Shown piece by piece: positions 9,750-52,234 of a DNA stretch of 63,265 bases. The DNA comes from a virus. The notes beneath the pieces were generated by a model. That model was given only the letters and a program-made list of their open reading frames with translations, made no database searches and was not told the DNA's origin. Every line of letters starts with the position of its first letter. The first letter of the stretch is position 1. The stretch covers positions 1-63,265 of the IMG/VR virus record IMGVR_UViG_3300009414_000002, one strand, 5' to 3'. The position numbers and the translations under genes were made by a program.

Positions 9750-9764
9750 GTTACAGGTAGTAAG

Positions 9765-15921: not shown

Positions 15922-15938
15922 AGGAGGATTTAGGCAAA

Positions 15939-30610: not shown

Positions 30611-31275
30611 TCCGTCGTTCCAGACGCAACGGCCCATGCCGACAACAAGCCAGCAATCGCCGTTTCATCCGGCGTCAAATGGTCTTTCAGCGTACTTCCC
30701 TCTTCGCAAATCTTAAGTCGCGCATTGACGTACTTTTCATACAGTTCTCGAGGTAGTTCCATGTGCAGTGGAATGAGATCGTTTTCCAATGCTTGGCCTT
30801 CCAACTCCCCTGCGCCAACTTGATTCGGGTTGATGTCCGCATCGCTTAAGTCTGCAATTGCTGAAAGTGCGTCCAACTCATCTTCCAAAAACGGGAACAG
30901 TGCGTCTGCATCCATTGCTTGAATGTTTTCCACCAGCTTTGCGAGCATGATTTGATCTGGTTCGCCGCGAAGATGATTCAAGATCAACGTCAATTGCTTG
31001 GCTTGCGACTCGCTTATCTTGCCGAGTGTGTTCACTTCGACATCTTCCCATCCGAGTTCCTTCAACAGTTTCCAACGGTGGAACCCGTCGATGATTTCGA
31101 ACCCGGCAGACTCCTCGACTTGCCTGACGGTAATGGGCTGAACGTATCCGAACTTCTCCAAGCTCTCGCGCTCTTTTTCGTAGATTTCATGGTCCATTTG
31201 ATTTGGATTCCACGAGTTCGGTCTTAGTTCGTTGATGTCAACTTTGATCACATTGATATTGCTTACTGTTCCCAT
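30607..31275 (-). CDS. ParB-like N-terminal domain protein
   Basis: 222 aa. Residues 5-90 match the ParB/sulfiredoxin fold: INELRPNSWNPNQMD, GYVQPITVRQ, FEIIDGFHRWKLLKELG. The C-terminal part is helical and acidic. Phage proteins of this type occur near DNA-modification and packaging genes; some bind DNA or hydrolyse CTP, but no function can be assigned here. I chose the start at 31275 (GGAAAGGTGTGTC before ATG), which overlaps the DpdA-like gene by 13 bases. It is the last gene of the leftward arm. Confidence 0.7.
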   Translation of the reverse strand: MGTVSNINVIKVDINELRPNSWNPNQMDHEIYEKERESLEKFGYVQPITVRQVEESAGFEIIDGFHRWKLLKELGWEDVEVNTLGKISESQAKQLTLILNHLRGEPDQIMLAKLVENIQAMDADALFPFLEDELDALSAIADLSDADINPNQVGAGELEGQALENDLIPLHMELPRELYEKYVNARLKICEEGSTLKDHLTPDETAIAGLLSAWAVASGTTD

Positions 31276-32084
31276 GACACACCTTTCCTGTCCCAAAATT
31301 CAGTTATTTCTCTCGCCATCTGCGTGTACTTTCTGATAACCATCGGAACGCAATCGTGCGCCCTGTTTCTAGATAGCCTCCTCTTTGCCGTTGCTTTGCT
31401 CGGATGCCACCTTTTCCCAACTTGGAACTTTCCTCGTGGGTCCGCAACGAGTCCGTACTTGTAAGGATTCGTCCACGTCGTTGAATCCGCTGAATACAAA
31501 GGCGCTCGATACCACACTTCCGTCTTGGTGATTGCGAACCCATGAACTTTGACGCCAGCGTCATACGCCCGCATTACCATAGCCGGCGCGTCTTTCAACC
31601 CGTCGTTGGTAAACCCAACGTAGTCGAACTCTTCCAGCCATTCATCCCACACCTTGTAAGCGTTTGGAATGATGCTGTGCCAAACGGGCAATACGCGATG
31701 ACCTTCGTCTTGAAGCTCTTTTCTCATTTCCAGAACAAGCCCGTATGGGATGAGAGCGTAGATGTCCAGTTCGGCAACCCAGAGAAGTTGCCCTTTCATT
31801 TTGCGGGCAAGTTTTTTCAACTTGTCGAACGTGTCACGCACTTTTGGAACTTTGGTTCTTGGTTTTGTCGGCGTATGCCGTCTCCAAGCATCAGACCCGT
31901 AAACATTGATCAGCGTGTGTGCCCCGGAATCCAAAACGAAATCTGCCCCGTCATAGAGGTCTATCTCGATGTTTTTTTCTGCCAATGGGCTCCCAAGCCG
32001 CCCTAGCAAGTCCGGGTTTTGGTTGATTGCTTCTGCAATCATTGGCTCGGACTCCTGCCCGCCACCAGCAAAGTAAACTTTCAT
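31263..32084 (-). CDS. dpdA: DpdA-like 7-deazaguanine DNA transglycosylase (TGT superfamily)
   Basis: 273 aa. Its likely role is exchanging guanine in DNA for a 7-deazaguanine base. The segments GADFVLDSGAHTLIN, LDIYALIPYG, YVGFTNDG and VHGFAITKTE ... PLYSADSTTWTNPYKYG match the short phage DpdA-like branch of tRNA-guanine transglycosylases. The Asp in VLDSGA and the Asp in SADSTTW are candidate catalytic residues. Association with QueD, QueE and FolE in one operon supports this strongly. It is ATGA-coupled to the glycosyltransferase upstream. A few related phage enzymes remain uncharacterised. Confidence 0.72.
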   Translation of the reverse strand: MKVYFAGGGQESEPMIAEAINQNPDLLGRLGSPLAEKNIEIDLYDGADFVLDSGAHTLINVYGSDAWRRHTPTKPRTKVPKVRDTFDKLKKLARKMKGQLLWVAELDIYALIPYGLVLEMRKELQDEGHRVLPVWHSIIPNAYKVWDEWLEEFDYVGFTNDGLKDAPAMVMRAYDAGVKVHGFAITKTEVWYRAPLYSADSTTWTNPYKYGLVADPRGKFQVGKRWHPSKATAKRRLSRNRAHDCVPMVIRKYTQMAREITEFWDRKGVSWEQ

Positions 32085-33211
32085 TCCGTAATCCCCGCTG
32101 AAATTGAAGCTATTTTTGAAGACGCCGCTTCATGATCTCGCCACCAGTATTTCCTCATCACATCATCTCTGAAATCAACAACACGTCTCTCTCCCTTCAA
32201 ACACTCAATCATCATGTTGAGGGCTTGTTGCTTTTCTTCATACAAAAACGGGTACCTTTCACTCAACGTGTCATTGAGAATTTGCGGAAGGACCTCTGGA
32301 TAAGATTTGTTGTTTGGTGCGATTGGAAGAGCTCCATTCAGCGCCGCTTCCAAGCATGAGTATCCAAAGTTCTCTTGCTTCGCCAACGAAATCCAGCACG
32401 TCGCCTTGCCAAGAAGGTTCAAATAATCGGGTCGGTCCAAGGGACCCCCATTTGGACCCGCTTGCATGGTCCAGACGAATTCGCCCCTACCGGCGATCTG
32501 AATCGCTCGTTTCGCCCATTTCACTGCGTCGGTCTGGCGTTTTTCGGGGTGATCGCGACCCGTGAACACAATCAACGGTTGCCTGTCGTCTGCTGGCATC
32601 CTCTTGGCAGCAACGTGGTCGTCCGTGTGGAACGGCAATCCGGTGGCATGGACCTTTCGGTCAATGCCTGACTTGTTAACCCTCCAGTGTTCATGGCAAA
32701 GCTCTCGCTTGTGGTGGTTCGTTCCAACGTAGATGTGCCGGAACAGTTGAAGGAACGTGCGTTCGAAGCAACTAACCCACTCGCCATTTGTTTTTCTGGA
32801 CATCGACGCCACGGAATCGCTTGCTGTCCATGACCCGGCATGGAGGATGGCGTCGAAATGGAGTTCGATTCCTTTCATTTGCGCCGCATAAGCAACGCCT
32901 TCGATGCCGGGGAACCATCCGTCCCCCAGCAAAATCACATCCCCGCTTGAAACTTCTCCGGTTTGTATCATCGAGCAAAGCAATGAAATTTGTTTGCTTT
33001 TGTATTTGATTGTTCCGGTTGCGCTCAAAAACTCATGTGATTCAAGGGCTTCTGACATATAGCTCGGGGTGACTGAAGCGACATCCACACCTTTCAGATT
33101 GCCAAGCGATTCTAAAATTCTCTCGTTGAAATGTTTGCAGTACCTCGACGGGATCTCTTCAATGCCGACGTACACTATTTTTTCAGGTGATTTGCGCTTG
33201 GACGTGAACAT
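32081..33211 (-). CDS. Glycosyltransferase, GT-B fold (GT4-like)
   Basis: 376 aa. The C-terminal half has GT4-type motifs: LIVFTGRDHPEKRQTDAV, then ISLAKQENFGYSCLEAALNG and ALPIAPNNKSYPEVLP, where the E-x7-E pattern of nucleotide-sugar binding sits around QENFGYSCLEA. It is flanked by the DpdA-like gene (ATGA overlap) and the EndoIII-like fusion, so it may glycosylate the modified base in DNA or a precursor. A surface or virion glycan is the alternative. I chose the ATG at 33211 with GAGGAACA before it. Confidence 0.7.
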   Translation of the reverse strand: MFTSKRKSPEKIVYVGIEEIPSRYCKHFNERILESLGNLKGVDVASVTPSYMSEALESHEFLSATGTIKYKSKQISLLCSMIQTGEVSSGDVILLGDGWFPGIEGVAYAAQMKGIELHFDAILHAGSWTASDSVASMSRKTNGEWVSCFERTFLQLFRHIYVGTNHHKRELCHEHWRVNKSGIDRKVHATGLPFHTDDHVAAKRMPADDRQPLIVFTGRDHPEKRQTDAVKWAKRAIQIAGRGEFVWTMQAGPNGGPLDRPDYLNLLGKATCWISLAKQENFGYSCLEAALNGALPIAPNNKSYPEVLPQILNDTLSERYPFLYEEKQQALNMMIECLKGERRVVDFRDDVMRKYWWRDHEAASSKIASISAGITE

Positions 33212-34169
33212 TGTTCCTCTCTTGAAAGTGACGGACTGTCGCGTCGTTTTCTCCATCTTCCGAAACCGTTACGCGAACCCACGGAATTTCTGGAAATTCA
33301 GAGCAAATTGCAGATGCCAAGGCGTTCCCAATCTCTTCGCACGACGCAGTTTCAAAAATGTTGTTGAGCGTTTTGCACAAAAGATCGTCACAGCATGACT
33401 GGAGTATGTGGAATTCGATTTGACGCGATTTCAAAATCGGAACCGTCGCGGAGCATTTGAACAAATGCCGATGATTTTTCCTCAAATACATGACTTCATC
33501 TGGGGCATCCGGCCAATGATGGAAACCAACGGCTTGGAACCTGACTGTTATCGAAGTGTGTTCGTCGGTTTTTGAATATTCACAACCTTGGCTCAATGGG
33601 CATTCCAAGCAAGCTGGAGTTGTGTTGTGGCAAACCAGTTCGCCAATGTCTTTCAGCGCGATCATCAGGTCGTAGTTGCGATGCCTTGTCATCGTCAATG
33701 ACGCCAAGAATCGCTTTGGATCGCCTTTCAGCCTACTCGCAACCCTGATTATGTGAGCATCCGTTGGTGGTGGAGTGTCGGTTTCACCACGAGCCATTTT
33801 GATCAGAGGTATTGCAGACCCCCAGTCAAATGAAGACTTGGATGCTGGAACGCCTATTTCCCCATCCAGCCACATCGCGACGGAAGTGACGATTGATCTC
33901 TGATACCACGGAAGTGGGAGGTTGCTCAGGCGGTTTTTCTGGGCTTCAGGTGTCAGCTTAAGCCAGTCGCCAAACGTTGAAATTCCGGTGAAAATGCCCT
34001 TGAACTCTGATTCAAGTACCGGTGTGTCCGTGTACTCAAGAAGAGCCAAAGACATGAAAAACACATCCGGTGGACAGTCCGGTGTTCGCCAAGGCAAAGC
34101 TCTTCTTTCGCAATTATGGCTGTAGTAAATGGCAAGTGTGTCTTGTAGGTATTTCAGGTCGCCAGACAA
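33183..34169 (-). CDS. Fusion: EndoIII/MutY-like HhH-GPD domain with [4Fe-4S] motif plus QueD-like T-fold domain
   Basis: 328 aa. Residues 1-195 look like a DNA glycosylase of the EndoIII/MutY family: RRALPWRTPDCPPDVFFMSL resembles the MutY start, and CHNTTPACLECPLSQGC gives the C-x6-C-x2-C-x5-C iron-sulfur loop. Residues 210-328 resemble a 6-pyruvoyl-tetrahydropterin synthase (T-fold): FHHWPDAP and NHRHLF supply the three zinc-binding His, and SEDGENDATV resembles the conserved end, but the usual catalytic Cys before HxH is absent. TTG start with AGGAGG five bases upstream. Both halves are recognised by motif only; the fusion appears unusual. Confidence 0.65.
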   Translation of the reverse strand: MSGDLKYLQDTLAIYYSHNCERRALPWRTPDCPPDVFFMSLALLEYTDTPVLESEFKGIFTGISTFGDWLKLTPEAQKNRLSNLPLPWYQRSIVTSVAMWLDGEIGVPASKSSFDWGSAIPLIKMARGETDTPPPTDAHIIRVASRLKGDPKRFLASLTMTRHRNYDLMIALKDIGELVCHNTTPACLECPLSQGCEYSKTDEHTSITVRFQAVGFHHWPDAPDEVMYLRKNHRHLFKCSATVPILKSRQIEFHILQSCCDDLLCKTLNNIFETASCEEIGNALASAICSEFPEIPWVRVTVSEDGENDATVRHFQERNNVHVQAQIT

Positions 34170-34193
34170 ATGTTCCTCCTTGCTGTCAGATCG

Positions 34194-34736
34194 TCAAAAA
34201 GCGATGTGCAGGAATTCTGACCTGCAAGCCGCATCTTCTTTCATGCACCCCCTGAGTGCCGATGTTGTTGTTTGTGCGCCGGTTCTCTGGACGCCTCGCA
34301 TGGACATACACAAGTGTTCTGCTTGCAACACAACTCCAGCACCGAGTGGTGCCAGTTGGTTGTAAAGGTAGTCCGCGATTTGATTTGTGAGATATTCTTG
34401 CGTTTGCGGCCTTAGTGAAAACTTGTCCACTACTCGAGCTAGCTTGCTCAACCCGCATATCTTTCCACTTGGATCTGGAATGTACGCGACCACCGCAGTG
34501 CCGAAAAATGGAAGCAAATGATGCTCACAGAACGAATAGAACATTATCTCCGAACAAACGATCATTTCATCTGTGCCGTTTGCAGGAAACGTCGTCAAAT
34601 TAAAGTCTGATCTCGCCTCGAACTCCTTCCACATTCGAGCGACTCGATCTGGCGTTTCAAGAGTGCCTTCAACCCCATTGTGTGGGATTTGAGACAACAT
34701 CGCTTCAACGGCTCCTTTTATGATCGATTCGTTCAT
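34194..34736 (-). CDS. folE: GTP cyclohydrolase I
   Basis: 180 aa. Converts GTP to dihydroneopterin triphosphate, the first step of both folate and 7-deazaguanine synthesis. Family motifs are clear: MFYSFCEHHLLPFFG (zinc Cys/His), GLSKLARVVDKFSLRPQTQE and EHLCMSMRGVQRTGAQTTT. The start ATG overlaps the QueE stop (ATGA). Its neighbours QueE, QueD and DpdA show that it serves DNA modification rather than folate. Full-length and apparently intact. Confidence 0.92.
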   Translation of the reverse strand: MNESIIKGAVEAMLSQIPHNGVEGTLETPDRVARMWKEFEARSDFNLTTFPANGTDEMIVCSEIMFYSFCEHHLLPFFGTAVVAYIPDPSGKICGLSKLARVVDKFSLRPQTQEYLTNQIADYLYNQLAPLGAGVVLQAEHLCMSMRGVQRTGAQTTTSALRGCMKEDAACRSEFLHIAF

Positions 34737-35413
34737 GGCAACCCAATGAACTTGTGTGTTTGGACTGAAAGTCTCCAATCGGTGTTGTTTTTCAAAAACT
34801 CAATGCACTGTGCGGTGTTGTCGCTTGAAATGCGTGGATCAACATCCCACTGGGGTTGGATGTACTTGTGTGAAATGTGCTCGGGTCCGCAAAGCGTTTC
34901 AACTTGCGTGTTCAATTCCAATGGGTCGAACTCTGGGCAAACGACTTTCAACTCATCATAACGCTGAGGAACAAACGGCATTGGGGGCTTTGGGCTCAAT
35001 GTCACCCAAGCCACTTCCTTTGGAAGCTCATTCGAACCATTTGTTTCGACGTGGACTCGAATTGCGTGCCTAGTCATTTGTTTCACAAGTTCCGTGTCGA
35101 TTTGAAGCGACGGTTCCCCACCAGTCATTACCGCAGTGGCTTCGCTGTTGTTGGGCCACAGCTTCCTTATCGTGTGAGCCAGTTCCGATGCCGTGTATTT
35201 GCCTCCAAGTGGACCATCTGTACCCACAAAATCCGTGTCACACCACAACGCACAACGGCCCTTCTCTACGTTCCGCTTGCGGTCCTCTTCGCGCCCCGTC
35301 CATACGTTACACCCCGCATACCGGACGAACACCACGGGACAGCCCGAATAAGCACCCTCGCCTTGAATTGAAAAGTACACTTCTTTAATCGCGTACGTTT
35401 TGTTCTCGTCCAT
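34733..35413 (-). CDS. queE: 7-carboxy-7-deazaguanine synthase QueE (radical SAM)
   Basis: 226 aa. Converts 6-carboxytetrahydropterin to 7-carboxy-7-deazaguanine (CDG). FSIQGEGAYSGCPVVFVRYA at the start and GCNVWTGREEDR ... GRCALWCDTDFVG provide the three Cys of the iron-sulfur cluster, in the longer-spaced form seen in proteobacterial enzymes. TGGEPSLQ is the SAM-binding strand and ETNGS a further conserved segment. GGAGTGCTAAC precedes the ATG. It sits between QueD and FolE. Confidence 0.92.
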   Translation of the reverse strand: MDENKTYAIKEVYFSIQGEGAYSGCPVVFVRYAGCNVWTGREEDRKRNVEKGRCALWCDTDFVGTDGPLGGKYTASELAHTIRKLWPNNSEATAVMTGGEPSLQIDTELVKQMTRHAIRVHVETNGSNELPKEVAWVTLSPKPPMPFVPQRYDELKVVCPEFDPLELNTQVETLCGPEHISHKYIQPQWDVDPRISSDNTAQCIEFLKNNTDWRLSVQTHKFIGLP

Positions 35414-35446
35414 GTTAGCACTCCAATTTGAATCCGGTCCAGCGTA

Positions 35447-35521
35447 TTACCAGCAATTTCGAATCCAAAGGAAAGTCGACGCTCCGCACAAGAATCCGAC
35501 AATGAATGTGCTGATGTCCAT
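35447..35521 (-). CDS. Tiny membrane protein (24 aa)
   Basis: MDISTFIVGFLCGASTFLWI, then four more residues: a single hydrophobic helix with a Met start, preceded by AAGGATTATTTAGAAC. It lies in the 148-bp gap between QueD and QueE in the same direction. Such one-helix proteins are frequent in phage early regions. It is short, so it could be chance, but the composition is strongly biased. Confidence 0.45.
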   Translation of the reverse strand: MDISTFIVGFLCGASTFLWIRNCW

Positions 35522-35561
35522 GTTCTAAATAATCCTTTTTTATGCCCAGACCCCGCAAAAG

Positions 35562-36005
35562 TTAAGACACAGGGTAGTCAGCCCAGCAGTTTGGGGTTTC
35601 ATACAGACGGACTGACTTGATCTCAACGCCGGTATTGTCCTTGGAGAACAGATCCGAAGCCGTTGAAAACAGAAGTTTTACCATATTTTCGGCTGTTGGA
35701 TTGCATTCCATGATGAATACTTTCATGCTTCGCTCAAGAAAAGCGTCTGCCAAATCGTCGTCTTCATGCAAGATCATCCCGTGGTCCAAATTGAGGTCTA
35801 TCCACGAGCCAAACAGTTCTTTTATGACGGAGAAGTCTACTACCCTACCAATGCCGTCAAGAGAGCCGTCTTCCGCTACGCAGCAAGTCAACTCAACCAC
35901 ATACCGGTGTCCGTGGTAATGTTCACACTTGCCTCCGTGATTTATCAGCCTATGTCCTGCGTCAAACTCGAGCTTCCTTGTGCAGGTCGGTTCTTGTGAA
36001 CTCAA
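35562..36005 (-). CDS. queD: 6-carboxy-5,6,7,8-tetrahydropterin synthase QueD
   Basis: 147 aa. Acts between FolE and QueE in 7-deazaguanine synthesis. Conserved residues are in place: FDAGHRLINHGGKCEHYHGHRY has the zinc His, the catalytic Cys (GGKCEHYHGH) and the HGH pair; VVDFSVIKEL, NLDHGMIL and MECNPTAENM follow as in the family, and the end has LYETPN. The start is TTG, overlapping the upstream stop as TTGA with GAGGAT before it. Confidence 0.92.
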   Translation of the reverse strand: MSSQEPTCTRKLEFDAGHRLINHGGKCEHYHGHRYVVELTCCVAEDGSLDGIGRVVDFSVIKELFGSWIDLNLDHGMILHEDDDLADAFLERSMKVFIMECNPTAENMVKLLFSTASDLFSKDNTGVEIKSVRLYETPNCWADYPVS

Positions 36006-39753: not shown

Positions 39754-40269
39754 TCACTCCTTCGCTTGCGCTTCCGCTCGATCCCACGGGGCCTTCGGGT
39801 TTCCGATTTTCCAATCGTGTTCCCATCGGCTTCTCATTATCTTGATTGAAACAAGAGGCACTCGGTGGCCTGTTCGTACGGTCCTCATGGCTAAATCCTC
39901 GTCCGACAGACCGGAATCAAACAAATCAACAACGAAAACCCGGGCGCAGTACTCGCTAGCAATCTTAAAATACGGCTCAAGCTCCCATCTTTCGCTGAAT
40001 GTGTTTGCAACGGCTGCCGACTGACCATGATTCAGCGCGTGCGCGGCATTGGTTTGGCACCAGATATGCGCTTCAGGCAGCTTGTCCGGGGCAAAGATGT
40101 ATTGATCATCCACCATGAAAAAATCGTCAGCAGCAAATACTCTAGCGCTTGTTGGGCTGCCAATGAGATCAGCGAACCCATGCATTAGCTGCTTTGCGAA
40201 TGTTGTTTTGCCAGACCCGGGCAAACCCCTAACAAGAACCAAATCCAAACGACCAACTGTTTCAGTCAT
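39754..40269 (-). CDS. P-loop kinase-like AAA protein
   Basis: 171 aa. Walker A GLPGSGKTTFAKQ at about residues 14-26 and VFAADDFFMVDD resemble NEDD4BP2/polynucleotide-kinase-like P-loop proteins. It may phosphorylate a nucleic acid end or a nucleotide; the substrate is unknown. GGAGG precedes the start at 40269. It overlaps the upstream gene by eight bases. Confidence 0.68.
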   Translation of the reverse strand: MTETVGRLDLVLVRGLPGSGKTTFAKQLMHGFADLIGSPTSARVFAADDFFMVDDQYIFAPDKLPEAHIWCQTNAAHALNHGQSAAVANTFSERWELEPYFKIASEYCARVFVVDLFDSGLSDEDLAMRTVRTGHRVPLVSIKIMRSRWEHDWKIGNPKAPWDRAEAQAKE

Positions 40270-40765
40270 CTTCAAACACCTCCGATAAAGAATTGTCTAC
40301 CTTTGCTTCACTACCGGGTTCTTCAGCCGCGAAGTACCCGTACGACGACATGAAGTCTGCACAGATGTATTCCAGACAGACGCCGTGCCATGTTCGTTTT
40401 TTGACCTTTTCATGTTGGTCGTCATATTCAAGGAGCATTGAGCGAACAACCTGTAAGGCGTTCCGAACAACTTCCCGCTGTTCCTTGGTTATCCTGAAAC
40501 GCAACCACAGCCAGTCGGCGTCAGATTTGCTTTCAGATGGGGGCGCGGCATCGTGTTGAGGTTCAATTGCATTTAGACGCGCTTTTTCGATTTCATCTCC
40601 ATCGATGTCAATATCCAAAGGCATGATCGCCACATTTTTGACGTTTGCAAAAGCACCACACTCTCCACACTCAAGTCTCAGATAGCCCGTTCGCCACGGC
40701 TTCGCGTTGAAGTCATTCCCATTCCCACACGTCATACAATTCAATGCTGTAACTCGCTTAGTCAT
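40262..40765 (-). CDS. Zinc-ribbon protein beside the primase
   Basis: 167 aa. The N-terminal zinc ribbon (CMTCGNGN ... LECGECGAF) is followed by an acidic linker and a C-terminal helical part (EQREVVRNALQVVRSML). It overlaps the primase-helicase by eight bases. May bind DNA near the replication machinery; function unknown. Confidence 0.55.
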   Translation of the reverse strand: MTKRVTALNCMTCGNGNDFNAKPWRTGYLRLECGECGAFANVKNVAIMPLDIDIDGDEIEKARLNAIEPQHDAAPPSESKSDADWLWLRFRITKEQREVVRNALQVVRSMLLEYDDQHEKVKKRTWHGVCLEYICADFMSSYGYFAAEEPGSEAKVDNSLSEVFEDD

Positions 40766-42596
40766 CGTATATCCCTGCTTGATTGTCTGGGGTGAATGGA
40801 TTCACCGAATACCTCAGCGACTCTTTGTCGAAATGGAGCACGATGTTTCCTTCTTCACCGTAATCACTCCTGACTTTCAATGTCGTTAAAAGCATTCTGT
40901 TCAAGTCATCATCTTTATCGGTTCGAACGTGTGTTCTTTTTCTATGGCATCTAATGACCCCATCGGCGTATTGCTTGATGCCTGAAGACCCGCGAATGTC
41001 GTCCAGTTCGATGAGCATTGGCTCACCCGTTTTCGGGTTTTTGGGCATCTTTTTAGGGTGACATACGAGCCCTATCCAAATATCCAGCTTGTGGGACATA
41101 TCCACGATTTCCTGAATGGCTTCGTCTTGATCAGCATAGTCGTCTCTTGCCCTTACGAAGTAGTCCAAGTGGTCCAAAACAACGTGCCTGACTCCCAACC
41201 GCCTGACGGCATACTCAACACGTATCGAAAGCTCCGATCTATCCATTCGCCCCGATTGTCGGAACGTGAACAAGTTCATTGATTTCAAAACCTCTGCGCT
41301 GTAATCGAACTCAGACTCTTCCATGTCTCTGGCTCGACGCTTTCCAATCATAGAAATTAGTTTCTGGGCTATTTGCCGAGGTTGCATTTCCGGTGGAACG
41401 AATAAAGTGGGATTCCCCGTGACAACCAAATTCCTTACCAAGTCCGTCAAAAACGTTGTCTTTCCAGTCCCAGTGTCCCCCGTGAAAATCCAAACCTCAC
41501 CACCGCGCAATCCACCACCGAGCAATTGATTCAAGGGCTCCCACTGCGTTTTCGTGCCGGAATTTTTTGGGTCCAATACGTCGCGCGCTTCATCTGCGAA
41601 ATCCCCCATCCGAACCACATCCCCCGCGCAAGGGACTGCTTTGCCGATACATTGTTGAATGATCTCTTTTGGAATCTTGTGCTCCAAACACGCTGAAGCA
41701 TCTTTTTCCGGTAGTGTTACTATGCTGCATCGGTAATGACCGAGCTTCTCTGCCGCAAGAGCGGCACCTTTTATTCCAGCATCGTCGTTGTCGTAAACGA
41801 AGATTATTTCGTCAAATATCGAAAGGTCCTCCAACCATGAGTCGGGCCAAGAACCCGCTCCAGCGGTAACGGAAATACATGGCTCGAACCCATATTGGTG
41901 GAGTGCAACCGCGTCGAGTTCCGCTTCGGTTATGAATACCTTCCGGTAGTCCCCTTCTTTCATTGCTTGGTCGAGCCCAAACAACTCTGTCTTACCGCCT
42001 TTTAGCCGTTTCCACTTCGGACCATCTTCAAAAGGTCCGCTTCCGACACGTCGTAGCTTAACCAGTGCAGGGGAACCATCTTTGAACGATGGCAAAACAA
42101 CGTACTCCCGCCCTTGTTCCATTGCAGACCCGATTTCAAACACATCCAAGGCGTCTTTGGTAAAACCACGCGAAGCCAAGTAGTGCATCGCTGGATTGTC
42201 CGGGTATCCGAATAAGACCTTTGTGGCTTCGGCAACGTAAGCGGAAAACTTTGCTTTTATGTTATCGGATAAGCCGTGTTCTGATTTCGACGCGGTTGTC
42301 TTGTGACGCGCCGAGATGTCTTTTATGGACTGGCTGTAAACGGGTGCTGGCAAATCGCCCAACTCGCGTCTCAGCGTGACCATGTTTCCGTTTTTGTTGC
42401 AACACCATGTGTGGAACACTCCACTATCCGCATTGATATAGAGCGGTCGTTTTTTTCCACCACTTTTTGACTTGCCGTACTTCTGCCCGCAAAAAGGGCA
42501 GTCGAATATCAACTCAAGACCGTTGGTGTTGTTTTCTGTGGCCTTGAGAGCCCAACCTTTCTGGTGGGCGTATGTGGTTATGTCGGACTGCGACAT
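40758..42596 (-). CDS. DNA primase-helicase (T7 gp4-like, TOPRIM plus DnaB-type)
   Basis: 612 aa. An N-terminal zinc finger (FDCPFCGQKYG ... HTWCCNKNG) is followed by a TOPRIM domain (VFITEAELDAVALHQYG; IFVYDNDDAGIKG) and a hexameric RecA-like helicase: Walker A GDTGTGKTTFLTDL, Walker B HVVLDHLDYF, then GSSGIKQYAD. It would synthesise primers and unwind DNA. The start after GAGGAGAAACCGA is preferred to upstream ATGs. No DNA polymerase gene is near. Confidence 0.9.
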   Translation of the reverse strand: MSQSDITTYAHQKGWALKATENNTNGLELIFDCPFCGQKYGKSKSGGKKRPLYINADSGVFHTWCCNKNGNMVTLRRELGDLPAPVYSQSIKDISARHKTTASKSEHGLSDNIKAKFSAYVAEATKVLFGYPDNPAMHYLASRGFTKDALDVFEIGSAMEQGREYVVLPSFKDGSPALVKLRRVGSGPFEDGPKWKRLKGGKTELFGLDQAMKEGDYRKVFITEAELDAVALHQYGFEPCISVTAGAGSWPDSWLEDLSIFDEIIFVYDNDDAGIKGAALAAEKLGHYRCSIVTLPEKDASACLEHKIPKEIIQQCIGKAVPCAGDVVRMGDFADEARDVLDPKNSGTKTQWEPLNQLLGGGLRGGEVWIFTGDTGTGKTTFLTDLVRNLVVTGNPTLFVPPEMQPRQIAQKLISMIGKRRARDMEESEFDYSAEVLKSMNLFTFRQSGRMDRSELSIRVEYAVRRLGVRHVVLDHLDYFVRARDDYADQDEAIQEIVDMSHKLDIWIGLVCHPKKMPKNPKTGEPMLIELDDIRGSSGIKQYADGVIRCHRKRTHVRTDKDDDLNRMLLTTLKVRSDYGEEGNIVLHFDKESLRYSVNPFTPDNQAGIYDD

Positions 42597-42610
42597 TCGG
42601 TTTCTCCTCA

Positions 42611-43516
42611 TCAAAAAGGCGCATCGTCCAATGAAATGGAATGCTCTGTCATTTCTTTTTCAGCTTGCGAAAACAGTTCATCGGTTTCGGTTGTGACGGA
42701 TGCAGTTGTTGTTTGTGATTTCATTATTCCAGCTTCAACCCGCTCGTCAGATGCAAACATGGTTAAAAACTCGTTTGCGTTTGCGTTGTCTCGCCACCAT
42801 TTGTCGCTGTGATACCCGGTCAAACACTCACGTAGTTGCTCGAGTGACCAGTTTTTCAAGCGAGCTCTGGCTTTGGAAATCCTCTTTGGCGTGACTCTGG
42901 ACTTGCCCGAACGAAACAGCTTACTCCATTCGCTTATCAAGCTATCTGCTTGACCATCGTTCACTGGTGGTTGCTTTTTCCTCGGCTTTCGTTCAGGGGT
43001 TGGCTTTTCGGCTGGTTTCGCGTTTGGAGTGAACAAGTGCGATACTGGAATTTCTGAGATTTTAGCTTCCAAAAGTTTTCCAAGCTCCAACCCGTATGTT
43101 TCGCACTCCTCTTGAACGCGCTTTGCTACGTCTGGTTTCGAAAGCAGCTTTTTGTTGTGTGCAAACCAACCGTTTTTGAAACCATCACTTTCCAGCGTTA
43201 TGACTTGCCGGACTGCCGCCAAAGTGAATTTCCACGAACCTTGCTGTTCTTTGAAGAACGTTTTCACCCACATGAGGTGTTCGTCACCGTCGTAGACGAT
43301 GAGATCACGCTGCTCCAGTTCCACCATGCCCACGAGAAGACGTTTCGCGTCCATTCGCGACTCAAAGCACGCAACGTCCAAATGAAGCCGGTAGACGCCA
43401 GATGCTTGCGTGTGCGTGTTGCAACACAGGTAAAAATAAAGACCCATCGCGTCGAACGACAAACCAAGTCTGTCGGGGTCCGACCAATATTCGTCATTCC
43501 ACAGACGTTTCGCCAT
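42611..43516 (-). CDS. DnaD-like replication initiator / helicase loader
   Basis: 301 aa. The N-terminal winged-helix-like region (RLGLSFDAMGLYFYLCCNTH; GVYRLHLDVACFESRM) and a C-terminal helical region (WSLEQLRECLTGYHSDKWW) resemble phage replisome-organiser proteins. The end DDAPF looks like an SSB C-terminal tip. It lies directly upstream of the primase-helicase it may load. Start preceded by AGAGGG. Confidence 0.65.
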   Translation of the reverse strand: MAKRLWNDEYWSDPDRLGLSFDAMGLYFYLCCNTHTQASGVYRLHLDVACFESRMDAKRLLVGMVELEQRDLIVYDGDEHLMWVKTFFKEQQGSWKFTLAAVRQVITLESDGFKNGWFAHNKKLLSKPDVAKRVQEECETYGLELGKLLEAKISEIPVSHLFTPNAKPAEKPTPERKPRKKQPPVNDGQADSLISEWSKLFRSGKSRVTPKRISKARARLKNWSLEQLRECLTGYHSDKWWRDNANANEFLTMFASDERVEAGIMKSQTTTASVTTETDELFSQAEKEMTEHSISLDDAPF

Positions 43517-44212: not shown

Positions 44213-44728
44213 CTAGAACGGAATGTCGTCGTCGTCGGGTGGTACGATGCCCGGTTGGACCCCGGAAACCGGAGCCGACGGAGATGCTGCACCGGCACCC
44301 GAATTGCCACCGCTATTTGCGTTTGCCGCTCCAAGTGCCAGTCCATCGACTTCTGAATTCGTGAGCCGGTAACATTTTCGGACTTCGTTTCTTGGTTCCC
44401 CTCGAAACTCCGTTTGGCTAACTTGCACCGCAAGCGACTTCCCCATGAATGCCCCGGTGACCGCTTCTTCGGAATCCAGATCGAACTTCTCGGAATGGGA
44501 ACACGCCGAGCAAAACTCTCCCCACATTCCATACGCGGACTCAACCACGGTCAGTCTGTGGAAAACCGAAAGCCCTTTGTTCGGGACACTCAACCGAAGT
44601 GAGTAGTAGTAATTGCCGTTTTTCGACGGCCCTTTCTTGGTAACGTCAGCTACCGTGACAACGTATCTGCCCGTTGGGAGCACATCCGGTATTTGGCTGT
44701 GCCCTTGAGGGTCAAAAATTTGCGACAT
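44213..44728 (-). CDS. Single-stranded DNA-binding protein, DUF669-like
   Basis: 171 aa. Residues 15-110 are an OB-type fold (LPTGRYVVTVADVTKKG, NYYYSLRLSVPNKG). A Gly/Ala/Pro-rich linker then leads to DDDDIPF at the C-terminus, the SSB tip that recruits partner proteins. The CAACAAGGAGG ribosome site lies before it. Confidence 0.75.
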   Translation of the reverse strand: MSQIFDPQGHSQIPDVLPTGRYVVTVADVTKKGPSKNGNYYYSLRLSVPNKGLSVFHRLTVVESAYGMWGEFCSACSHSEKFDLDSEEAVTGAFMGKSLAVQVSQTEFRGEPRNEVRKCYRLTNSEVDGLALGAANANSGGNSGAGAASPSAPVSGVQPGIVPPDDDDIPF

Positions 44729-44803: not shown

Positions 44804-45610
44804 TTACTCGAGTTCCAATTCTGATTCGCTGTTGGCCTCTTCGGCCTCGACTTTCTTTTTCTTGGGAGCTTTCTTTTTCTTCACTTGGGTTTCGTCTGCT
44901 TTGCGCTCAGACTCCGTTGCGAGTTTCAATGCTTCGTTCATGTCCAGCATCATTATTGGCGGCAAACCCTCGTGGGCCTTGACTATCACCCTGTCGTCAC
45001 TTTTGTCCCAACAAACTTTGTACTCAATTTCGCCGCCAGACCCGGTTTTAAAAGCATACCCGCAAGCGTGAACCATGCCCATCAACTTGCCAACTGACTT
45101 GCGCCCAACCATCTGTGGCCGAACCAAGGTACGCATGGACTCCCCATCAGAATCTTGCGTTTCCTCTGCGAGACAAACATAAACAACACTGACTGGCAAA
45201 TCCCTGAATGCGCGAAACAGGTCAAATGACATATCGATTATTCGGCCCCACTCGGAAATCGATGGCGTAACGTTCTTGCTTGTTGAAAGAACTTGTCGTT
45301 TCGCCATAGACATCACATCGGTCGCACTGTCCAATGCGACTGCGCGAATGCCGTTTTCGATCGCTTTGTCTCTGATTGTCAAATACACCTGACGCAACTC
45401 GTCCCACGTTGTGACTGGGAAAAGAATTGCCTCTGGATTCGACGCCTTCACAGTTGAAATGTGGTGCCGTTCGCTCAGAACAACGGCAACGTTTGTGATT
45501 TTTGAAACGGAAGTTGTTTTGCCAACACCACTGTGACCAAACAAAACGAAATTTCTCTTTGTTGAACCTTCGTGGTTGCCTGCGCTGACAAATTCAAGAT
45601 AGTTACTCAC
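44804..45610 (-). CDS. RecA-like ATPase, Sak4-type recombinase
   Basis: 268 aa. Walker A FVLFGHSGVGKTTSV at about residues 22-36; Walker B-like GIRAVALDSATDV. Phage Sak4/AAA_24 proteins are annealing recombinases that act with an SSB; the SSB-like gene lies just downstream. The Lys/Glu-rich C-terminus is low complexity. Confidence 0.72.
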   Translation of the reverse strand: MSNYLEFVSAGNHEGSTKRNFVLFGHSGVGKTTSVSKITNVAVVLSERHHISTVKASNPEAILFPVTTWDELRQVYLTIRDKAIENGIRAVALDSATDVMSMAKRQVLSTSKNVTPSISEWGRIIDMSFDLFRAFRDLPVSVVYVCLAEETQDSDGESMRTLVRPQMVGRKSVGKLMGMVHACGYAFKTGSGGEIEYKVCWDKSDDRVIVKAHEGLPPIMMLDMNEALKLATESERKADETQVKKKKAPKKKKVEAEEANSESELELE

Positions 45611-46380: not shown

Positions 46381-47529
46381 CTAAAACGGTGCTGGCGCAA
46401 TACCGGAAGTTGATTCCTGCTGAATTTCAACGGGACCTTCCCCTCCGATTTCATTGAACATCAATTGGATTCTCTCTTCATCATCTATGCCCCCGTATGG
46501 ATCTACGCAAATGTCCAGAAATTCGCACCTGCGCCCCAACGGATTGCATTGATTCGTGCTTCGACGCCAAGCGTTTGCTTCGTGACCGGCATCGATTTCT
46601 TTGGTCACCGCAACGGCATCACTCAACCATTGTTCGATGACGGAACTTTGCGGTTGAGTATCCACGCGGAACAAAAACGCATCGCCTTTCTTCGACAACA
46701 TCGCAAGCTGGTCTTCGTAATCAGTGAACACTTGGTTTGCATCGCGCAACGCATTCGTGAAAACCTTGTACGTCGTATCGCACGACGCTTTGGAAATGGT
46801 TCCGTTTTTCAAAACCTTGGGAACCGATGGGATCTTTTTCCGAAGGAAGTTGTACAAAAATCCAATTTGGGGAGCTTTGTCTTTGAACTCTGCCAATTTG
46901 TTCCGGTCAACAGATATTGAAATGTCGTCGCTGTCGGAATACATGGCAGTCCGAATGGCGTACAGGTACGCCCACGATTGAGGGGACATTTCGTAAGTGC
47001 GCTTGGCCGCTTGCGGCGAATACGCGGCAGTTGTTTTGTGGTCAATGACAATGATCCTGTTCGATGATGGCTCGTACACAAGCAAATCGATTGCCCCAGT
47101 CAACCTCCACCCCGGGGCAAGGGTGTTTGAAAGCGGGATGTCGAACACAACTTCCGTTCCAAGAATCACCCAGTCCCCCATGTCCCCTTGATACTTGTCT
47201 ATGTATCGAGACATCATGCTTCTTGCGAGTTCAGATGCTTTTTCGATGGCTTCTTCGTCAAATGACACTTGGTCTTGCAAACCCTCTTGCTCGCATTCGG
47301 ACAACTTTTTGGACATCCCTTCTTCCCACTCAGTGATGAGTCCTTCGTGTATGAAGTTGCCTTTGTAAAACTCTTCCAAACATGAGTGGACCAGCGTGCC
47401 AAACACCAACGGCATTTTCGGGGCCTTGGGTCGAAGCCGTCGGACACGGGAGTAGTAATACTTCCGTGGGCATTCGCAAAACGATACCATTGTGCTGTTT
47501 GACAGTATTTTGAATTGGTGGTCACTCAC
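46381..47529 (-). CDS. PD-(D/E)XK exonuclease, Cas4/RecB-like
   Basis: 382 aa from a GTG at 47529. MVSFCECPRKYYY is the typical entry motif, LTGAIDLLVYEPSSNRIIVI and DHKTTAAYSP supply the D...DxK site, and QCNPLGRRCEFLDIC supplies further Cys for an iron-sulfur cluster. Likely a 5'-3' or recombination exonuclease partner of the Sak4-like ATPase. It ends in APAPF. An alternative start is the ATG at 47559. Confidence 0.82.
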   Translation of the reverse strand: MSDHQFKILSNSTMVSFCECPRKYYYSRVRRLRPKAPKMPLVFGTLVHSCLEEFYKGNFIHEGLITEWEEGMSKKLSECEQEGLQDQVSFDEEAIEKASELARSMMSRYIDKYQGDMGDWVILGTEVVFDIPLSNTLAPGWRLTGAIDLLVYEPSSNRIIVIDHKTTAAYSPQAAKRTYEMSPQSWAYLYAIRTAMYSDSDDISISVDRNKLAEFKDKAPQIGFLYNFLRKKIPSVPKVLKNGTISKASCDTTYKVFTNALRDANQVFTDYEDQLAMLSKKGDAFLFRVDTQPQSSVIEQWLSDAVAVTKEIDAGHEANAWRRSTNQCNPLGRRCEFLDICVDPYGGIDDEERIQLMFNEIGGEGPVEIQQESTSGIAPAPF

Positions 47530-47983
47530 TTGATGACCCCGCTTCGGTTCCAGTTCCATCGCAACCAACGCACGTTGTATTGTGAGCTTGTGCTGGATCA
47601 CGTTCCCCGCGAATCTCTGCGGAACCGTCTGTCCAACCAGAACCACCGCAAATCCGGCAATCGTTAGTGGACTTTACAGCGGACGTTGGCCTCAACTCCT
47701 CAAGCGCAATGCTTGGGTTTATGAGCTTGAACGGCCCATCCATGCCGAAAGCCGCCGCGATGGTACACAGTGTCTTGACCGTGATGTTTTCGCTTTGATT
47801 CATAATCCTCGACATCCCGCTCGTGGATAGCCCGTTTTCGGCGCAAAACCCGCGAAGGGACTGATTCCTAAGCGTCAACGACAAACTGATTCTTTCGCTC
47901 AAGGTCGCCATCAAATTGTCAGTCATTACCGAAGCCGCACTTTCATGCTTTCGGTCGTGATCTACGTCAAAATTGTCTTGCAT
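47522..47983 (-). CDS. XRE-type regulator with C-terminal zinc ribbon
   Basis: 153 aa. Residues 25-95 form a Cro/CI-like helix-turn-helix (LRGFCAENGLSTSGMSRIM; ITVKTLCTIAAAFG). The C-terminus has CRICGGSGW and CVGCDGTG, a DnaJ-type zinc ribbon. Probably binds operator DNA to control the leftward operon. Fusion of HTH with a zinc ribbon is uncommon. Confidence 0.65.
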   Translation of the reverse strand: MQDNFDVDHDRKHESAASVMTDNLMATLSERISLSLTLRNQSLRGFCAENGLSTSGMSRIMNQSENITVKTLCTIAAAFGMDGPFKLINPSIALEELRPTSAVKSTNDCRICGGSGWTDGSAEIRGERDPAQAHNTTCVGCDGTGTEAGSSSE

Positions 47984-47991: not shown

Positions 47992-49566
47992 CTATTCACC
48001 CAAAACCAGATCCAGTGCGCCTGAATCGTTGTTCAAGGTTCCTTTCCAAGTTTTGTCTGCCAACTTATCGATGGTTTGTTCCCACCCGCTCGACGCACCA
48101 ATCAAAACCCCGTAGCACGTCACTTCATGCTGTTCCCTAAATTGACGCCAAAGTGTTTCGCAATCTTCGTCAATGTCACACTCTCCATCCGTTATGAATA
48201 TGATATCTGCTCGTTTGAATTCGTTTGGTCGGTCGGTTGTTTCTTGTTCACGGTCGCTGTATTGCCCTCGCGACAAAATTTCCATCGAACTGATCAATGG
48301 TCTTTCCCACGAAGTTCCCCCGCCTGAAAACGTGCGGACAATATCCAGCATCGAATTCATTTTGGCTTGTTGGCTGTCGCCCTTCACGACGAAGCGTGTC
48401 AGTTGAACTTCTCCATCGAACAACACGGCTGCAAACGGACGGTTCTGTGAAACCGCTTTGTGCATGAGCGCAAACGCCATTGCTTTCGACCAAATTTCCC
48501 TGTGACCATCCATCGAACCAGATACGTCCACGCACGCAATGATTGGTCCCTTCCCAAGCGTTTCTCTGTCTTTCAGCGACCATTGCAAAAGCTGTTTTTC
48601 AACGTACTTCGACATGAACAACGCTTTGAGTTCTTTTTTGTTCGCCCATGCGTACTGGTGCGGCAAAAGCCGACGGAACTCGGCACCAAGTTCCACGTCA
48701 TCGATTTCCGCTGTACTTGCGCGGGCCTTGGTAGCGCGTTTGGTTCCATCGATTCGAATGAAACGACCTGCAAGATTCATTATTTCAGCAAACTTGTGAT
48801 CGTCCATGACGCGCTTTGCGAGGGCGATTCTTTCTTGAGCAGATACTTTTGTGATTTGACCGGATGAGTCTCCCCATCCCATCACTTCGGCCAACTTCTG
48901 CTCTTCGTCGATTTTCTCTTCTGCATCATTCGCAGCAGAACGAATCGCTGTTCTCAAAGCCGATTCATCTATTGAAGCATTGAATTCGTCCAATTCCTTA
49001 TCTATCCGGTCGGCTTTGTGCATGGCGCACCGGACTCCAGTTTCCAATTGTTCAAGTTCACCCGGGTCGTTCCCGCTGTATTCGGACAGCGCATCTTTTG
49101 CGTCGTCAATTTCGTCAGCAGCTTTGCCGAGATCCATGTTGTCGTTTGGTGCTGGTATGTTGCGTAGCACTTGTTCCGCAATGACCGACGCCGCCATTCC
49201 CGCGAAGACCTTATCCCCGCGTGTCCGGCTTATCAGCGGCTCCCATTGTCGGACCGATTGCGCCGCATCATGCGCCACCCGTGCCCAATGCGATTGCTTT
49301 GGAAGCTCCGGGTTTTCCAATGGGTTGTCAGATGAATACAACCGTTGAAACAACTCACGGTAAAACGCCTCCAACCCCGGGAGTCGCTCTTGTTCTTCCT
49401 CATACGGAACCGGCATTGCAAGACCCGACTTGATGAGGTTTTTGTACTGATAGCGGGACCATTTCAACGCCCGATGAACTTGGTCTTCCGTGTCAGCAAG
49501 CAACCATTCGTCATCGGTATTGGACGGCCTGAGATTGATTGTTCTTTCGTTTGTTGATTCACTCAT
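47992..49566 (-). CDS. VWA-domain protein (ViaA-like)
   Basis: 524 aa. The C-terminal VWA domain contains IIACVDVSGSMDGHREI, the MIDAS motif, and DIIFITDGECDIDED. The N-terminal 330 residues are helical. Together with the MoxR-type ATPase encoded upstream it forms a RavA-ViaA-like pair, which remodels protein complexes. Targets in phage infection are unknown. Confidence 0.82.
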   Translation of the reverse strand: MSESTNERTINLRPSNTDDEWLLADTEDQVHRALKWSRYQYKNLIKSGLAMPVPYEEEQERLPGLEAFYRELFQRLYSSDNPLENPELPKQSHWARVAHDAAQSVRQWEPLISRTRGDKVFAGMAASVIAEQVLRNIPAPNDNMDLGKAADEIDDAKDALSEYSGNDPGELEQLETGVRCAMHKADRIDKELDEFNASIDESALRTAIRSAANDAEEKIDEEQKLAEVMGWGDSSGQITKVSAQERIALAKRVMDDHKFAEIMNLAGRFIRIDGTKRATKARASTAEIDDVELGAEFRRLLPHQYAWANKKELKALFMSKYVEKQLLQWSLKDRETLGKGPIIACVDVSGSMDGHREIWSKAMAFALMHKAVSQNRPFAAVLFDGEVQLTRFVVKGDSQQAKMNSMLDIVRTFSGGGTSWERPLISSMEILSRGQYSDREQETTDRPNEFKRADIIFITDGECDIDEDCETLWRQFREQHEVTCYGVLIGASSGWEQTIDKLADKTWKGTLNNDSGALDLVLGE

Positions 49567-49575
49567 TGAACCACC

Positions 49576-50775
49576 TCAATCCAATCCGCGACCACGAAAA
49601 ATCTCGTGGTTCAGCCGTTCTTGCAAATCAGTCCACATTTGGCGAATGCCGCCAATCAGCGTGTCAACCGAACCCGATACCCGGTCTTGCCGTGACGAAA
49701 TCACCGATGCTTGCTTTCCGATGTTCTCTAGTTGCTCCAATATGGTGGACCCACCATCCAAAAATTCAGCGCGACTCTCTTTCGGGTTTGGAAGCTGTGA
49801 AACCAGTTCCTTCGCGGCGTCATACAACTCCTGCACTTCGTTCAAGACCGGATTGGCGATTTTGCTGACTACACGGACGATGGTTGGCTTGTCTTCTGGT
49901 TTTCCCCAAAGGAGGTCTGCCAAAATTTCGAACGATTCAACTTCCAGTTTGCCGTACCCGGACAAGACCGAATGCGCCGCCAGAATTGGTACGGTTTGTC
50001 TCCAACGCCTATCGCTGTACTCCAAACCTTCGTTCTTCAGCGCCTCGCTAATTTCAATCAGCGCGTCTTCAAATTCATCGTTGTCGTTTTCAAGGAACGC
50101 GGCGACTTTCGACCGAAGCTCTTCGAGTGATTTCGATGAAAGCGTGCATTGTGGATTGGGTGCTGGTCCGAACACGATTCGTTTTCTGTCAGCCGGATCT
50201 CCAGCCCACTTCACGTTGAGTCGAACCATGAACCTGTCGTAAATGGCATTCAACGTGTCGTCTTCTGGGAGTTCGTTCGATGCAGTGATCATCGTTTCCA
50301 GCGGAACGTCCTCGACAACCAACCCGTTGTGAAACTTGCGTTCGTTGACCACACATAGGAGCGTATTCAACAATGCGTGATTGCACTTCCACACTTCATC
50401 CAAAAGAACGACCTCGCACGTTGGAAGGTACCCTTCCGTTTTGCGATAAAACTCGTCGTTCATCAGCTTGGTGACGCTGTACGGACCAAGCACTTCATCT
50501 GGCAGCGTTGTTTTGGATACGAGGTACTCGAAATACGTTTTCCCGAGTGCCTTCGCGATTGCCCTCGCAAGCATTGACTTTGCAGTGCCCGGTGGGCCGA
50601 GGATGAAAACGTGCTCTTTTGCCAGAAATGCCGCCATTATTGCGACAATTTCACTGCGCCGGTCCACGAAGTGCTTGTCGAACTCATTTATGAATTCGAT
50701 CACTTCAACTTGGCAATCTTCTGGTTGTTCGCTTTGCTCGGTTCCGTCGATACTGACAATTGTTGCGTCCGTCAT
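49576..50775 (-). CDS. MoxR-family AAA ATPase (RavA-like)
   Basis: 399 aa. FILGPPGTAKSMLARAIA is Walker A; GYLPTCEVVLLDEVWKCNHA is Walker B; LNTLLCVVNERKFHNG and MITASNELPEDD are sensor 1 regions, all like RavA. The C-terminal helical part matches RavA-type length. The gene is next to the VWA gene (10-base gap). The extended ribosome site CAACAAGGAGG precedes it. Confidence 0.85.
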   Translation of the reverse strand: MTDATIVSIDGTEQSEQPEDCQVEVIEFINEFDKHFVDRRSEIVAIMAAFLAKEHVFILGPPGTAKSMLARAIAKALGKTYFEYLVSKTTLPDEVLGPYSVTKLMNDEFYRKTEGYLPTCEVVLLDEVWKCNHALLNTLLCVVNERKFHNGLVVEDVPLETMITASNELPEDDTLNAIYDRFMVRLNVKWAGDPADRKRIVFGPAPNPQCTLSSKSLEELRSKVAAFLENDNDEFEDALIEISEALKNEGLEYSDRRWRQTVPILAAHSVLSGYGKLEVESFEILADLLWGKPEDKPTIVRVVSKIANPVLNEVQELYDAAKELVSQLPNPKESRAEFLDGGSTILEQLENIGKQASVISSRQDRVSGSVDTLIGGIRQMWTDLQERLNHEIFRGRGLD

Positions 50776-50810: not shown

Positions 50811-51116
50811 TCAATCAACTCGCCAGCCCTCATCGAAAAGTTTGTCTGCAGTAACCGGTCTCGACAACGCTGAAACCGCTTCATGCGAGTCCAGCGTTCC
50901 GTAAATGTTTGCTCCTTCCAAAATGCCTAGCTTGAAGCCGCCACCTTGCGTTTTCATGAAATTGGAAACCAAAACAGCGGTGACTGGGAGTTCCAGACCA
51001 CCTTCCGAAACTTTCTTGAGTGGGCAACACGCGATCCCGTTGAATTTGAACTTCCAACGCAATGGATTTTTCATCCACCCAACGTGCCTGTCTTTGTTCG
51101 AAGACAAAATGAACAT
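50811..51116 (-). CDS. Hypothetical protein
   Basis: 101 aa, beta-rich, with the segment GWMKNPLRWKFKFNGIACC. Start at 51116 after GGAGGTTCA. The 35-base gap to the MoxR gene suggests co-transcription. No family was recognised. Confidence 0.55.
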   Translation of the reverse strand: MFILSSNKDRHVGWMKNPLRWKFKFNGIACCPLKKVSEGGLELPVTAVLVSNFMKTQGGGFKLGILEGANIYGTLDSHEAVSALSRPVTADKLFDEGWRVD

Positions 51117-51223: not shown

Positions 51224-52234
51224 CTAAAACGGTGCCGACGCGAGGTTTCGCTGAACAACATCTATCGGTTGTTCATTCTTCAAAACCTTGCCCAACTCAT
51301 CCATGACACGCTGCGTAGCGTTTACCATGTTTTTTTGTTCGACACCAAGAACGGTTGCCCACATTTTGGACTGATTCATCAGTTCCTCTGCGCGGGTAAT
51401 CCTTTTCTGTAGTGTGGAATCACGCGGGGCATCTACCCACTCTTCGACCTCCTCTTTGAGCTTTCGCAACTTTGTCGCGATGTCCTCTTCTGCCGACTCG
51501 GCAACCCATTCGCGCATCGCTTTTGTGTCAACGATTGGAATGAGGTTTATTCGACCACCGAGTGCGGCAATTGCGCTTCGGAGTGCAATCAAACCGGGAC
51601 CACCGCCCATCCTGACGAACCGTTGACCCCGCTGGACCGGAATCGACCCGAGCGCGATAAGCTCATTCTTGATGAATGTTCCAACCGTTTGAGTCGCGAA
51701 CGTGTCTTCTGCGGTCCTGCGGTCAATCAGTTCCTTGGCGTGTGAAAACACAAAACGTACGCGCTCCAAAAACGACACTTCGTCACCTGTGGACGTTGTT
51801 TCGTTCGAAGTTGGGTCCATGTTGATGCATGCTCTCCCGTTGATGATGGAAACCAAAAGTCTGCCAACCCTGCTATGGGCGTCATTTTCCCGGTCGTACT
51901 CATGCAACGAGTACATCGTGTAAAGCGATGTTTTGTCCGCAACTTCGAGCCGAAGACGCTGCGATTTCGGAAGTGCGTTGACTGCCTCGCTCACACTTCG
52001 TTCTGCCCACGTCAGCTTGCTTGGAGCTTTCGGTATGGCAGATTCGAAATGAGGACAATGGGTGGTCAACTCTTCTTCAAAACGAGCGGCGGTTGGCTCA
52101 ATACCGCGAAGGTTGTACCCAACGAGGTGACCGAGGATCACTAAGTCCTTAACGTCTCCGATGAGCGCGTCAAGTTGACTTTGCGTATCGACAACCGCTG
52201 GGTGTTCACTCTTGCTGGCATTGGACTCTGGCAT
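51224..52234 (-). CDS. DUF6744-like phage protein, first large gene of the leftward replication operon
   Basis: 336 aa, starting after AAGGAGGTGTTTC. The segment QRGQRFVRMGGGPGLIALRS and a C-terminal coiled-coil (LRKLKEEVEEW) loosely resemble DUF6744-type phage proteins; function unknown. The end is SAPF, like an SSB tip. Upstream is a 1.1-kb noncoding control region. Confidence 0.55.
   Translation of the reverse strand: MPESNASKSEHPAVVDTQSQLDALIGDVKDLVILGHLVGYNLRGIEPTAARFEEELTTHCPHFESAIPKAPSKLTWAERSVSEAVNALPKSQRLRLEVADKTSLYTMYSLHEYDRENDAHSRVGRLLVSIINGRACINMDPTSNETTSTGDEVSFLERVRFVFSHAKELIDRRTAEDTFATQTVGTFIKNELIALGSIPVQRGQRFVRMGGGPGLIALRSAIAALGGRINLIPIVDTKAMREWVAESAEEDIATKLRKLKEEVEEWVDAPRDSTLQKRITRAEELMNQSKMWATVLGVEQKNMVNATQRVMDELGKVLKNEQPIDVVQRNLASAPF

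Follow-up and report, generated by a model that had tools for sequence, protein, structure and literature searches.

A recurrent third gene, DUF6744, beside viral MoxR-VWA gene pairs, and a possible remodelling machine in an uncultured phage

Gene pairs that join a MoxR-type AAA+ ATPase to a protein with a VWA domain are already known from viruses, having been described in Acidianus two-tailed virus (ATV; PMC4124505), jumbo phages (PMC7824862), haloviruses (PMC7911831) and Bacillus phage 0305phi8-36 (PMC2147016). They are scattered under the labels of tail chaperone, cobaltochelatase and conflict system, with one tested case. Two further pairs serve here as points of reference: in NorQ-NorD, as described in PMC9976466, a finger of the VWA protein enters the MoxR pore and the metal-ion-dependent adhesion site (MIDAS) is needed for the target, while in Escherichia coli RavA-ViaA both the LARA domain of RavA and the arginine-rich C-terminal helix of ViaA are reported to bind lipids (PMC9489729). 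Here we analyse a pair at positions 47992-50775 of the IMG/VR virus record IMGVR_UViG_3300009414_000002, a stretch of 63,265 bases from an uncultured phage (hereafter the window), together with a third gene of the Pfam family DUF6744 (PF20529) that accompanies such pairs in many viruses. It is this constant third gene, and its spread over different types of MoxR-VWA engine, that is new.

When the genes that neighbour the pair were clustered, one family, DUF6744, recurred: 62 of 149 loci have it, and 53 of these 62 are viral. The relatives were collected by alignment-based scans, in which VWA brought in 13 viral and 76 genome loci and MoxR 80 viral loci out of 142 confirmed; in the resulting 180 sequences, most of which were fetched via MoxR or VWA itself and some of which are duplicates, hidden Markov models (HMMs) found MoxR in 157, VWA in 179 and both in 156. 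Collapse at 90% identity left the 149 loci, of which 81 come from viruses or phages and 68 from genomes. From the former we omitted five entries (L006, L007, L010, L011 and L012), namely those treated as host-type RavA-ViaA (Campylobacter phage A11a/A18a, three Salmonella and one Escherichia records, and the gut fragments L010-L012) and likewise the gut fragment L006. In a whole-record search of the remaining 76 non-redundant viral records with the pair, DUF6744 was present in 63 (29/40 plus 34/36), using a model built partly from many of the sequences searched and leaving uncounted three records that had been found via DUF6744, all of which match. The centre-to-centre distance between DUF6744 and MoxR is at most 3 kb in 51 of the 63, and on contigs of at least 40 kb the two lie within 3 kb in 35 of 45 cases against about 3.7 expected (Fisher 3e-22), although sampling favours near cases, since the family came to notice in neighbourhoods reaching about 7 kb from the pair. 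Of the 63 DUF6744 genes, 3 lie beyond 7 kb from MoxR, the furthest at 20.6 kb. Among the 81 loci the order DUF6744-MoxR-VWA is the most frequent (33), followed by MoxR-VWA-DUF6744 (12), MoxR-DUF6744-VWA (5) and others (4). Two further IMG/VR contigs carry identical copies of the window genes (100% over the 1,000 bases aligned of one); these are the same virus and lend no independent support.

In the window itself, DUF6744 is the next large gene upstream of MoxR (51224..52234, minus strand, 336 aa), with an ATG at 52234 preceded by AAGGAGG. A family HMM made from relatives without the window sequence matches its product at E 2e-23, and five members of the set behind that HMM, as well as the protein of locus L004, reach 59-207 bits with Pfam DUF6744. 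The window protein is a divergent member of the family, to which the Pfam model alone gives 15.1 bits (E 0.011) against a gathering score of 27. An AlphaFold model of the product (residues from 52216 on; predicted local distance difference test, pLDDT, 82.9; predicted template modelling score, pTM, 0.77) consists of mixed alpha/beta parts and long C-terminal helices, with first elements that look winged-helix-like by eye. No confident match to this model was found in the PDB, while four viral predicted structures match it well, that of the HVTV-1 protein among them. The METTL16 VCR and KA1-domain chains (Z about 7) and the helices of CorA and ribosome recycling factor (Z 8-10) share common arrangements with the model, and no function was inferred from them for DUF6744. 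A candidate upstream gene in an Aphanizomenon phage was rejected as a family member, being LPD29. We found no paper naming DUF6744 in a literature search that covered few subscription journals.

DUF6744 is not confined to one kind of engine. A reverse scan with the DUF6744 alignment gave seven loci, three on new contigs and four already in the set, and in all seven a MoxR-type AAA gene and a VWA gene lie nearby, belonging to three subfamilies. Five carry a RavA-like MoxR with its VWA partner. In L185, DUF6744 (9512-10474) lies near an AAA gene with a CbbQ_C match (13250-14440) and a CobT VWA gene (14526-16397), a CobS/CobT-type pair, and in L183 an AAA_5 protein (815-1978) is followed by a VWA protein with a DUF2201 metallopeptidase domain (2056-3387) and DUF6744 (3492-4376); both loci had been candidates for DUF6744 without a pair until these other AAA types were identified there. 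Because the L185 pair is of CobS/CobT type and the L183 VWA protein carries a metallopeptidase domain, DUF6744 stays constant while the type of engine changes. When 50,697 phage records were searched by tblastn, two DUF6744 proteins as queries found only Moorella phage MTATph1, which has the trio, and the window DUF6744 found no match, while the HVTV-1 protein retrieved eight haloarchaeal virus records. Two of these eight, HVTV-1 and HCTV-1, were checked for the trio: in HVTV-1 gp25 is DUF6744 (Pfam 69.5 bits, HMM 6e-30) and an AAA protein (gp59) and a VWA protein (gp57) are encoded about 15 kb away, and HCTV-1 carries the same set. In HCTV-2 (Saparoviridae), stretches 1-5000 and 30000-54291 gave no DUF6744 match. 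As a separate observation, a ribonucleotide reductase gene lies upstream of DUF6744, at most a few genes away, in L004 (3771-7245), L192 (5957-10966) and L200 (7803-13005), that is in MTATph1, HVTV-1 and HCTV-1.

The two engine genes of the window are well defined. MoxR (49576..50775, 399 aa) and VWA (47992..49566, 524 aa) are both on the minus strand, with 9 bases between them and a Shine-Dalgarno-like sequence ahead of each, and the earlier note, which read this DNA from its letters, had placed both genes correctly. The MoxR protein matches bpMoxR best in Pfam (4.9e-51), followed by AAA_5 (3.8e-22) and AAA_lid_8 (2.7e-9), with phrog_19600 at 5e-70 and the NCBIfam RavA model at 1.5e-50. Its MoxR-type AAA domain has Walker A and B, sensor and arginine residues; all 45 aligned rows share G60, G63 and K66 (Walker A), D126 and E127 (Walker B), N167, R181 and R256, the motif names having been assigned by reading and the rows being chosen from among the relatives retrieved. 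The VWA protein, with a helical N-terminal half and a C-terminal VWA domain, matches phrog_24053 (2.7e-41) and the NCBIfam ViaA model (1.7e-17), and in Pfam VWA models only, each just under its gathering score. It has a complete MIDAS (DxSxS, T, D), and D347, S349, S351, T418, D454 and D460 are identical in all 55 VWA rows, which were likewise chosen from among the relatives. In its structure model (pLDDT 87.3), VWA folds align over residues of about 277-524 at Z up to 18, and the MIDAS domain of Rea1 aligns from residue 250 (203 residues, root-mean-square deviation 4.0, Z 16.5). Chain 9qhe_G of NorQD is among the Foldseek matches, and by analogy the window pair may adopt a geometry like that of NorQD, which serves as the mechanistic model of a MoxR-VWA pair with VWA finger and MIDAS; the systems differ in that NorQD matures nitric oxide reductase, and no such enzyme was identified in the window. 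Families, motifs and fold together back the chaperone-type role that had been proposed for the pair.

The record also holds a terminase large subunit, a tape measure protein, a virion structural protein and a primase/helicase. On the same strand the trio is followed by a helix-turn-helix (HTH) regulator-like gene adjoining VWA (47522..47983, 153 aa; weak PHROG transcription-regulator matches, best E 0.0016), a RecB-like PDDEXK exonuclease of uncertain start codon (46381..47646; PDDEXK_1 4.6e-30, phrog_1218 exonuclease 1.9e-40), two small genes, a Sak4-like single-strand annealing protein (44804..45610; phrog_124 4.2e-30), a single-strand DNA-binding protein (SSB; 44213..44728; phrog_378 2.3e-7), a DnaD-like gene and the primase/helicase (40758..42614; phrog_239 5.6e-89), all on the minus strand. 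It had been suggested that the pair heads this replication operon; replication genes do follow on the same strand, but DUF6744 and a 101-aa open reading frame (50811..51116, minus strand; ATG at 51116 behind GGAGG) lie upstream on that strand as well. A promoter scan of the upstream gap gave nothing, and terminators were no commoner than in shuffles. For the 101-aa frame, phmmer matched only copies of the same virus and PHROG gave no match; neither it nor the HTH gene is conserved beside the pair elsewhere, and both were rejected as fourth parts. PDDEXK and/or Sak4 also occur a short way past VWA in several further contigs, and RecE-like and RecT-like genes in another group.

We propose that these genes encode a three-component viral remodelling machine with a target in DNA metabolism, a statement to which, taken as a whole, we assign a probability of roughly 0.45. 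The MoxR ring would be the motor that supplies ATP-driven force, as its motifs suggest; the VWA protein would be an adaptor that docks on the ring and holds the target at its MIDAS metal site, by comparison with NorQD and RavA-ViaA; and DUF6744, given its constant association across engine types, would be a dedicated third component, acting either as a target-selecting cofactor or as the remodelled client. That the three form a functional trio is, in our judgement, probable. The target is a more tentative matter: because the trio sits in an early minus-strand module before exonuclease, Sak4, SSB and primase, the likeliest candidate here would be one of the phage's own nucleoprotein complexes, for replication or recombination, and we put this forward with distinctly less than even confidence. 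Several observations weigh against the proposal. The pair occurs without DUF6744 in 13 of the 76 viral records, DUF6744 accompanies only 10 of the 68 bacterial or archaeal genome loci, in HVTV-1 and HCTV-1 it shows no linkage to the pair, and gene linkage is in any case not binding. One group lacks DUF6744 (L019, L021, L025, L065, L089, L092, L098 and L100), and most of its loci are near a portal-like gene (f20). Pooled over records having a Sak4 or PDDEXK match, proximity within 7 kb is not significant for either gene (Sak4 7/20, 4.7 expected, Fisher p 0.15; PDDEXK 8/20, 3.8 expected, p 0.08), and the DNA-metabolism target is therefore a hypothesis drawn from the window operon rather than an established property of the family. 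An association with recombination modules across all relatives was accordingly rejected, and is kept as a hint of context that applies to the window and to some of the contigs.

The recurrence of this trio across numerous other viruses makes the machine look viral rather than borrowed from a host. The earlier note had pointed to a resemblance to RavA-ViaA, and in families, motifs and fold that resemblance stands: in both systems a MoxR ATPase precedes a VWA protein whose N-terminal part is helical, Walker, sensor and MIDAS residues are shared, the AAA core of RavA aligns over window residues 30-294, and the top NCBIfam hits are RavA and ViaA, as would be expected had the phage captured a host pair that kept its role in respiration or membrane lipids. 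Membership does not follow. The RavA equivalog model reaches 172.7 bits against a cut-off of 681, over residues 30-293 only, and the ViaA model 63.8 bits against 500, over residues 282-438. The RavA alignment stops at residue 294 of 399, and because only 105 residues follow the AAA core, against about 200 in RavA, the LARA domain appears to be missing; the last 26 residues of the VWA protein contain no arginine (the translation being judged by eye), so the arginine-rich C-terminal helix typical of ViaA is missing too. In contrast to the E. coli system the window pair has DUF6744 nearby and a viral early-region setting. In a MoxR tree of 132 rows, a quick one with many long branches that supports only a coarse statement, the window falls in an all-viral set of 21 (Shimodaira-Hasegawa-like approximate likelihood ratio test, SH-aLRT, 95) and four host-type RavA rows group separately (100), which does not suggest recent host capture. 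Judged by these sequence comparisons the pair lies outside RavA-ViaA, and a captured host system still doing its host work is disfavoured and seems very improbable.

Other readings have precedents among viruses. The pair might act as a virion or tail assembly chaperone that shapes structural proteins, on the pattern of ATV, where according to PMC4124505 the virion MoxR ATPase p618 binds the VWA protein p892; ATV and other archaeal-virus pairs share with the window a virus-encoded MoxR with a VWA partner, a virion-assembly role is proposed in PMC7824862 for jumbo phage MoxR-vWA pairs, and the portal-like gene within the DUF6744-less group points the same way. Yet p618, itself a virion protein, is distant in sequence (28% identical over half the length), the window trio belongs to an early block on the minus strand, at a distance from the structural genes on the plus strand, and none of 11 records has a terminase within 7 kb of MoxR where 1.6 would be expected, which is weak evidence. 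The jumbo phage MoxR-vWA-metallopeptidase pair of PMC7824862 also resembles the window in being a phage MoxR with a VWA partner, and DUF6744 stands beside such a VWA in L183, but the window VWA has no metallopeptidase domain match. On balance an assembly role appears unlikely. Somewhat less likely still is the maturation of a metal cofactor or metalloenzyme as envisaged for viral CobS/CobT, for instance cofactor insertion for a viral ribonucleotide reductase. Viral CobST has been read in PMC8651126 as a cobalamin pair possibly serving a class II reductase, the CobS/CobT systems of Druskaviridae, Saparoviridae and cyanophages also combine AAA with VWA, and in HVTV-1 and HCTV-1, which also encode DUF6744, as in MTATph1, the family lies close downstream of a reductase gene. 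The window pair is nevertheless not of CobS/CobT type, its AAA and VWA proteins belonging to other subfamilies (the CobT_C VWA and CobT domains of Pfam do not match the window VWA, whereas they do match in L185), DUF6744 occurs with three engine types and is unlinked to the pair in the two haloviruses, and no reductase or cobalamin gene was found in an incomplete scan of about 37 window proteins.

The earlier note had also raised a role in defence or counter-defence, for which the family name bpMoxR is the one lead: the best Pfam match of the window MoxR domain is the MoxR of MoxR-vWA-beta-propeller ternary systems (PF20030), for which PMC7159879 proposes antiviral action. A related conflict device is nonetheless improbable here, because no propeller is present in the window VWA, the neighbours scanned included no beta-propeller, VMAP, STAND or FtsH partner that could be identified, the third component is DUF6744, the catalytic residues are uniform rather than varied, and PADLOC gave nothing credible (no VWA match and weak P-loop matches only for MoxR).

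Some further features deserve mention. Elsewhere in the window, again on the minus strand, a queuine tRNA-ribosyltransferase-like gene (31263-32084), a QueE-like gene (34733-35413) and a QueD-like gene (35562-36005) make up a likely deazaguanine pathway (31263-36005), possibly for DNA modification, and an ATPase or polynucleotide kinase-like gene lies at 39754-40275 (phrog_2071 2e-26). In most members of the DUF6744-less group a polymerase-family gene (f21) follows VWA, and in L025 the VWA gene is seemingly split (6446-7543 and 8477-8932) with another reading frame between, perhaps by an insertion. In gut Bacillota (L006, L023 and many Oscillospiraceae loci, L121-L166) the space separating MoxR from VWA often holds an SSB-family gene, and a sliding clamp and a helicase are found close by. 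This is likely a mobile element, and several genomes have more than one copy. The sliding clamp was seen in this group and in an Aphanizomenon phage, and was rejected as a general constant partner.

For viral MoxR-VWA pairs at large, the constant third gene offers a handle on what they share, and whether DUF6744 binds and steers the ATPase is directly testable, with Moorella phage MTATph1, HVTV-1 and HCTV-1 available as cultured viruses that carry the trio. The trio also calls into question the automatic metabolic reading of some viral CobST genes. It is possible, if on present evidence doubtful, that DUF6744 is a virus-specific cofactor which, in tailed viruses of bacteria and archaea, aims MoxR-VWA engines of differing origin (RavA-like, CobS/CobT-like and metallopeptidase-VWA) at a nucleoprotein complex of the virus; in that case viral 'CobST' genes with DUF6744 next to them would encode a machine for remodelling, not a pair for making vitamin B12.

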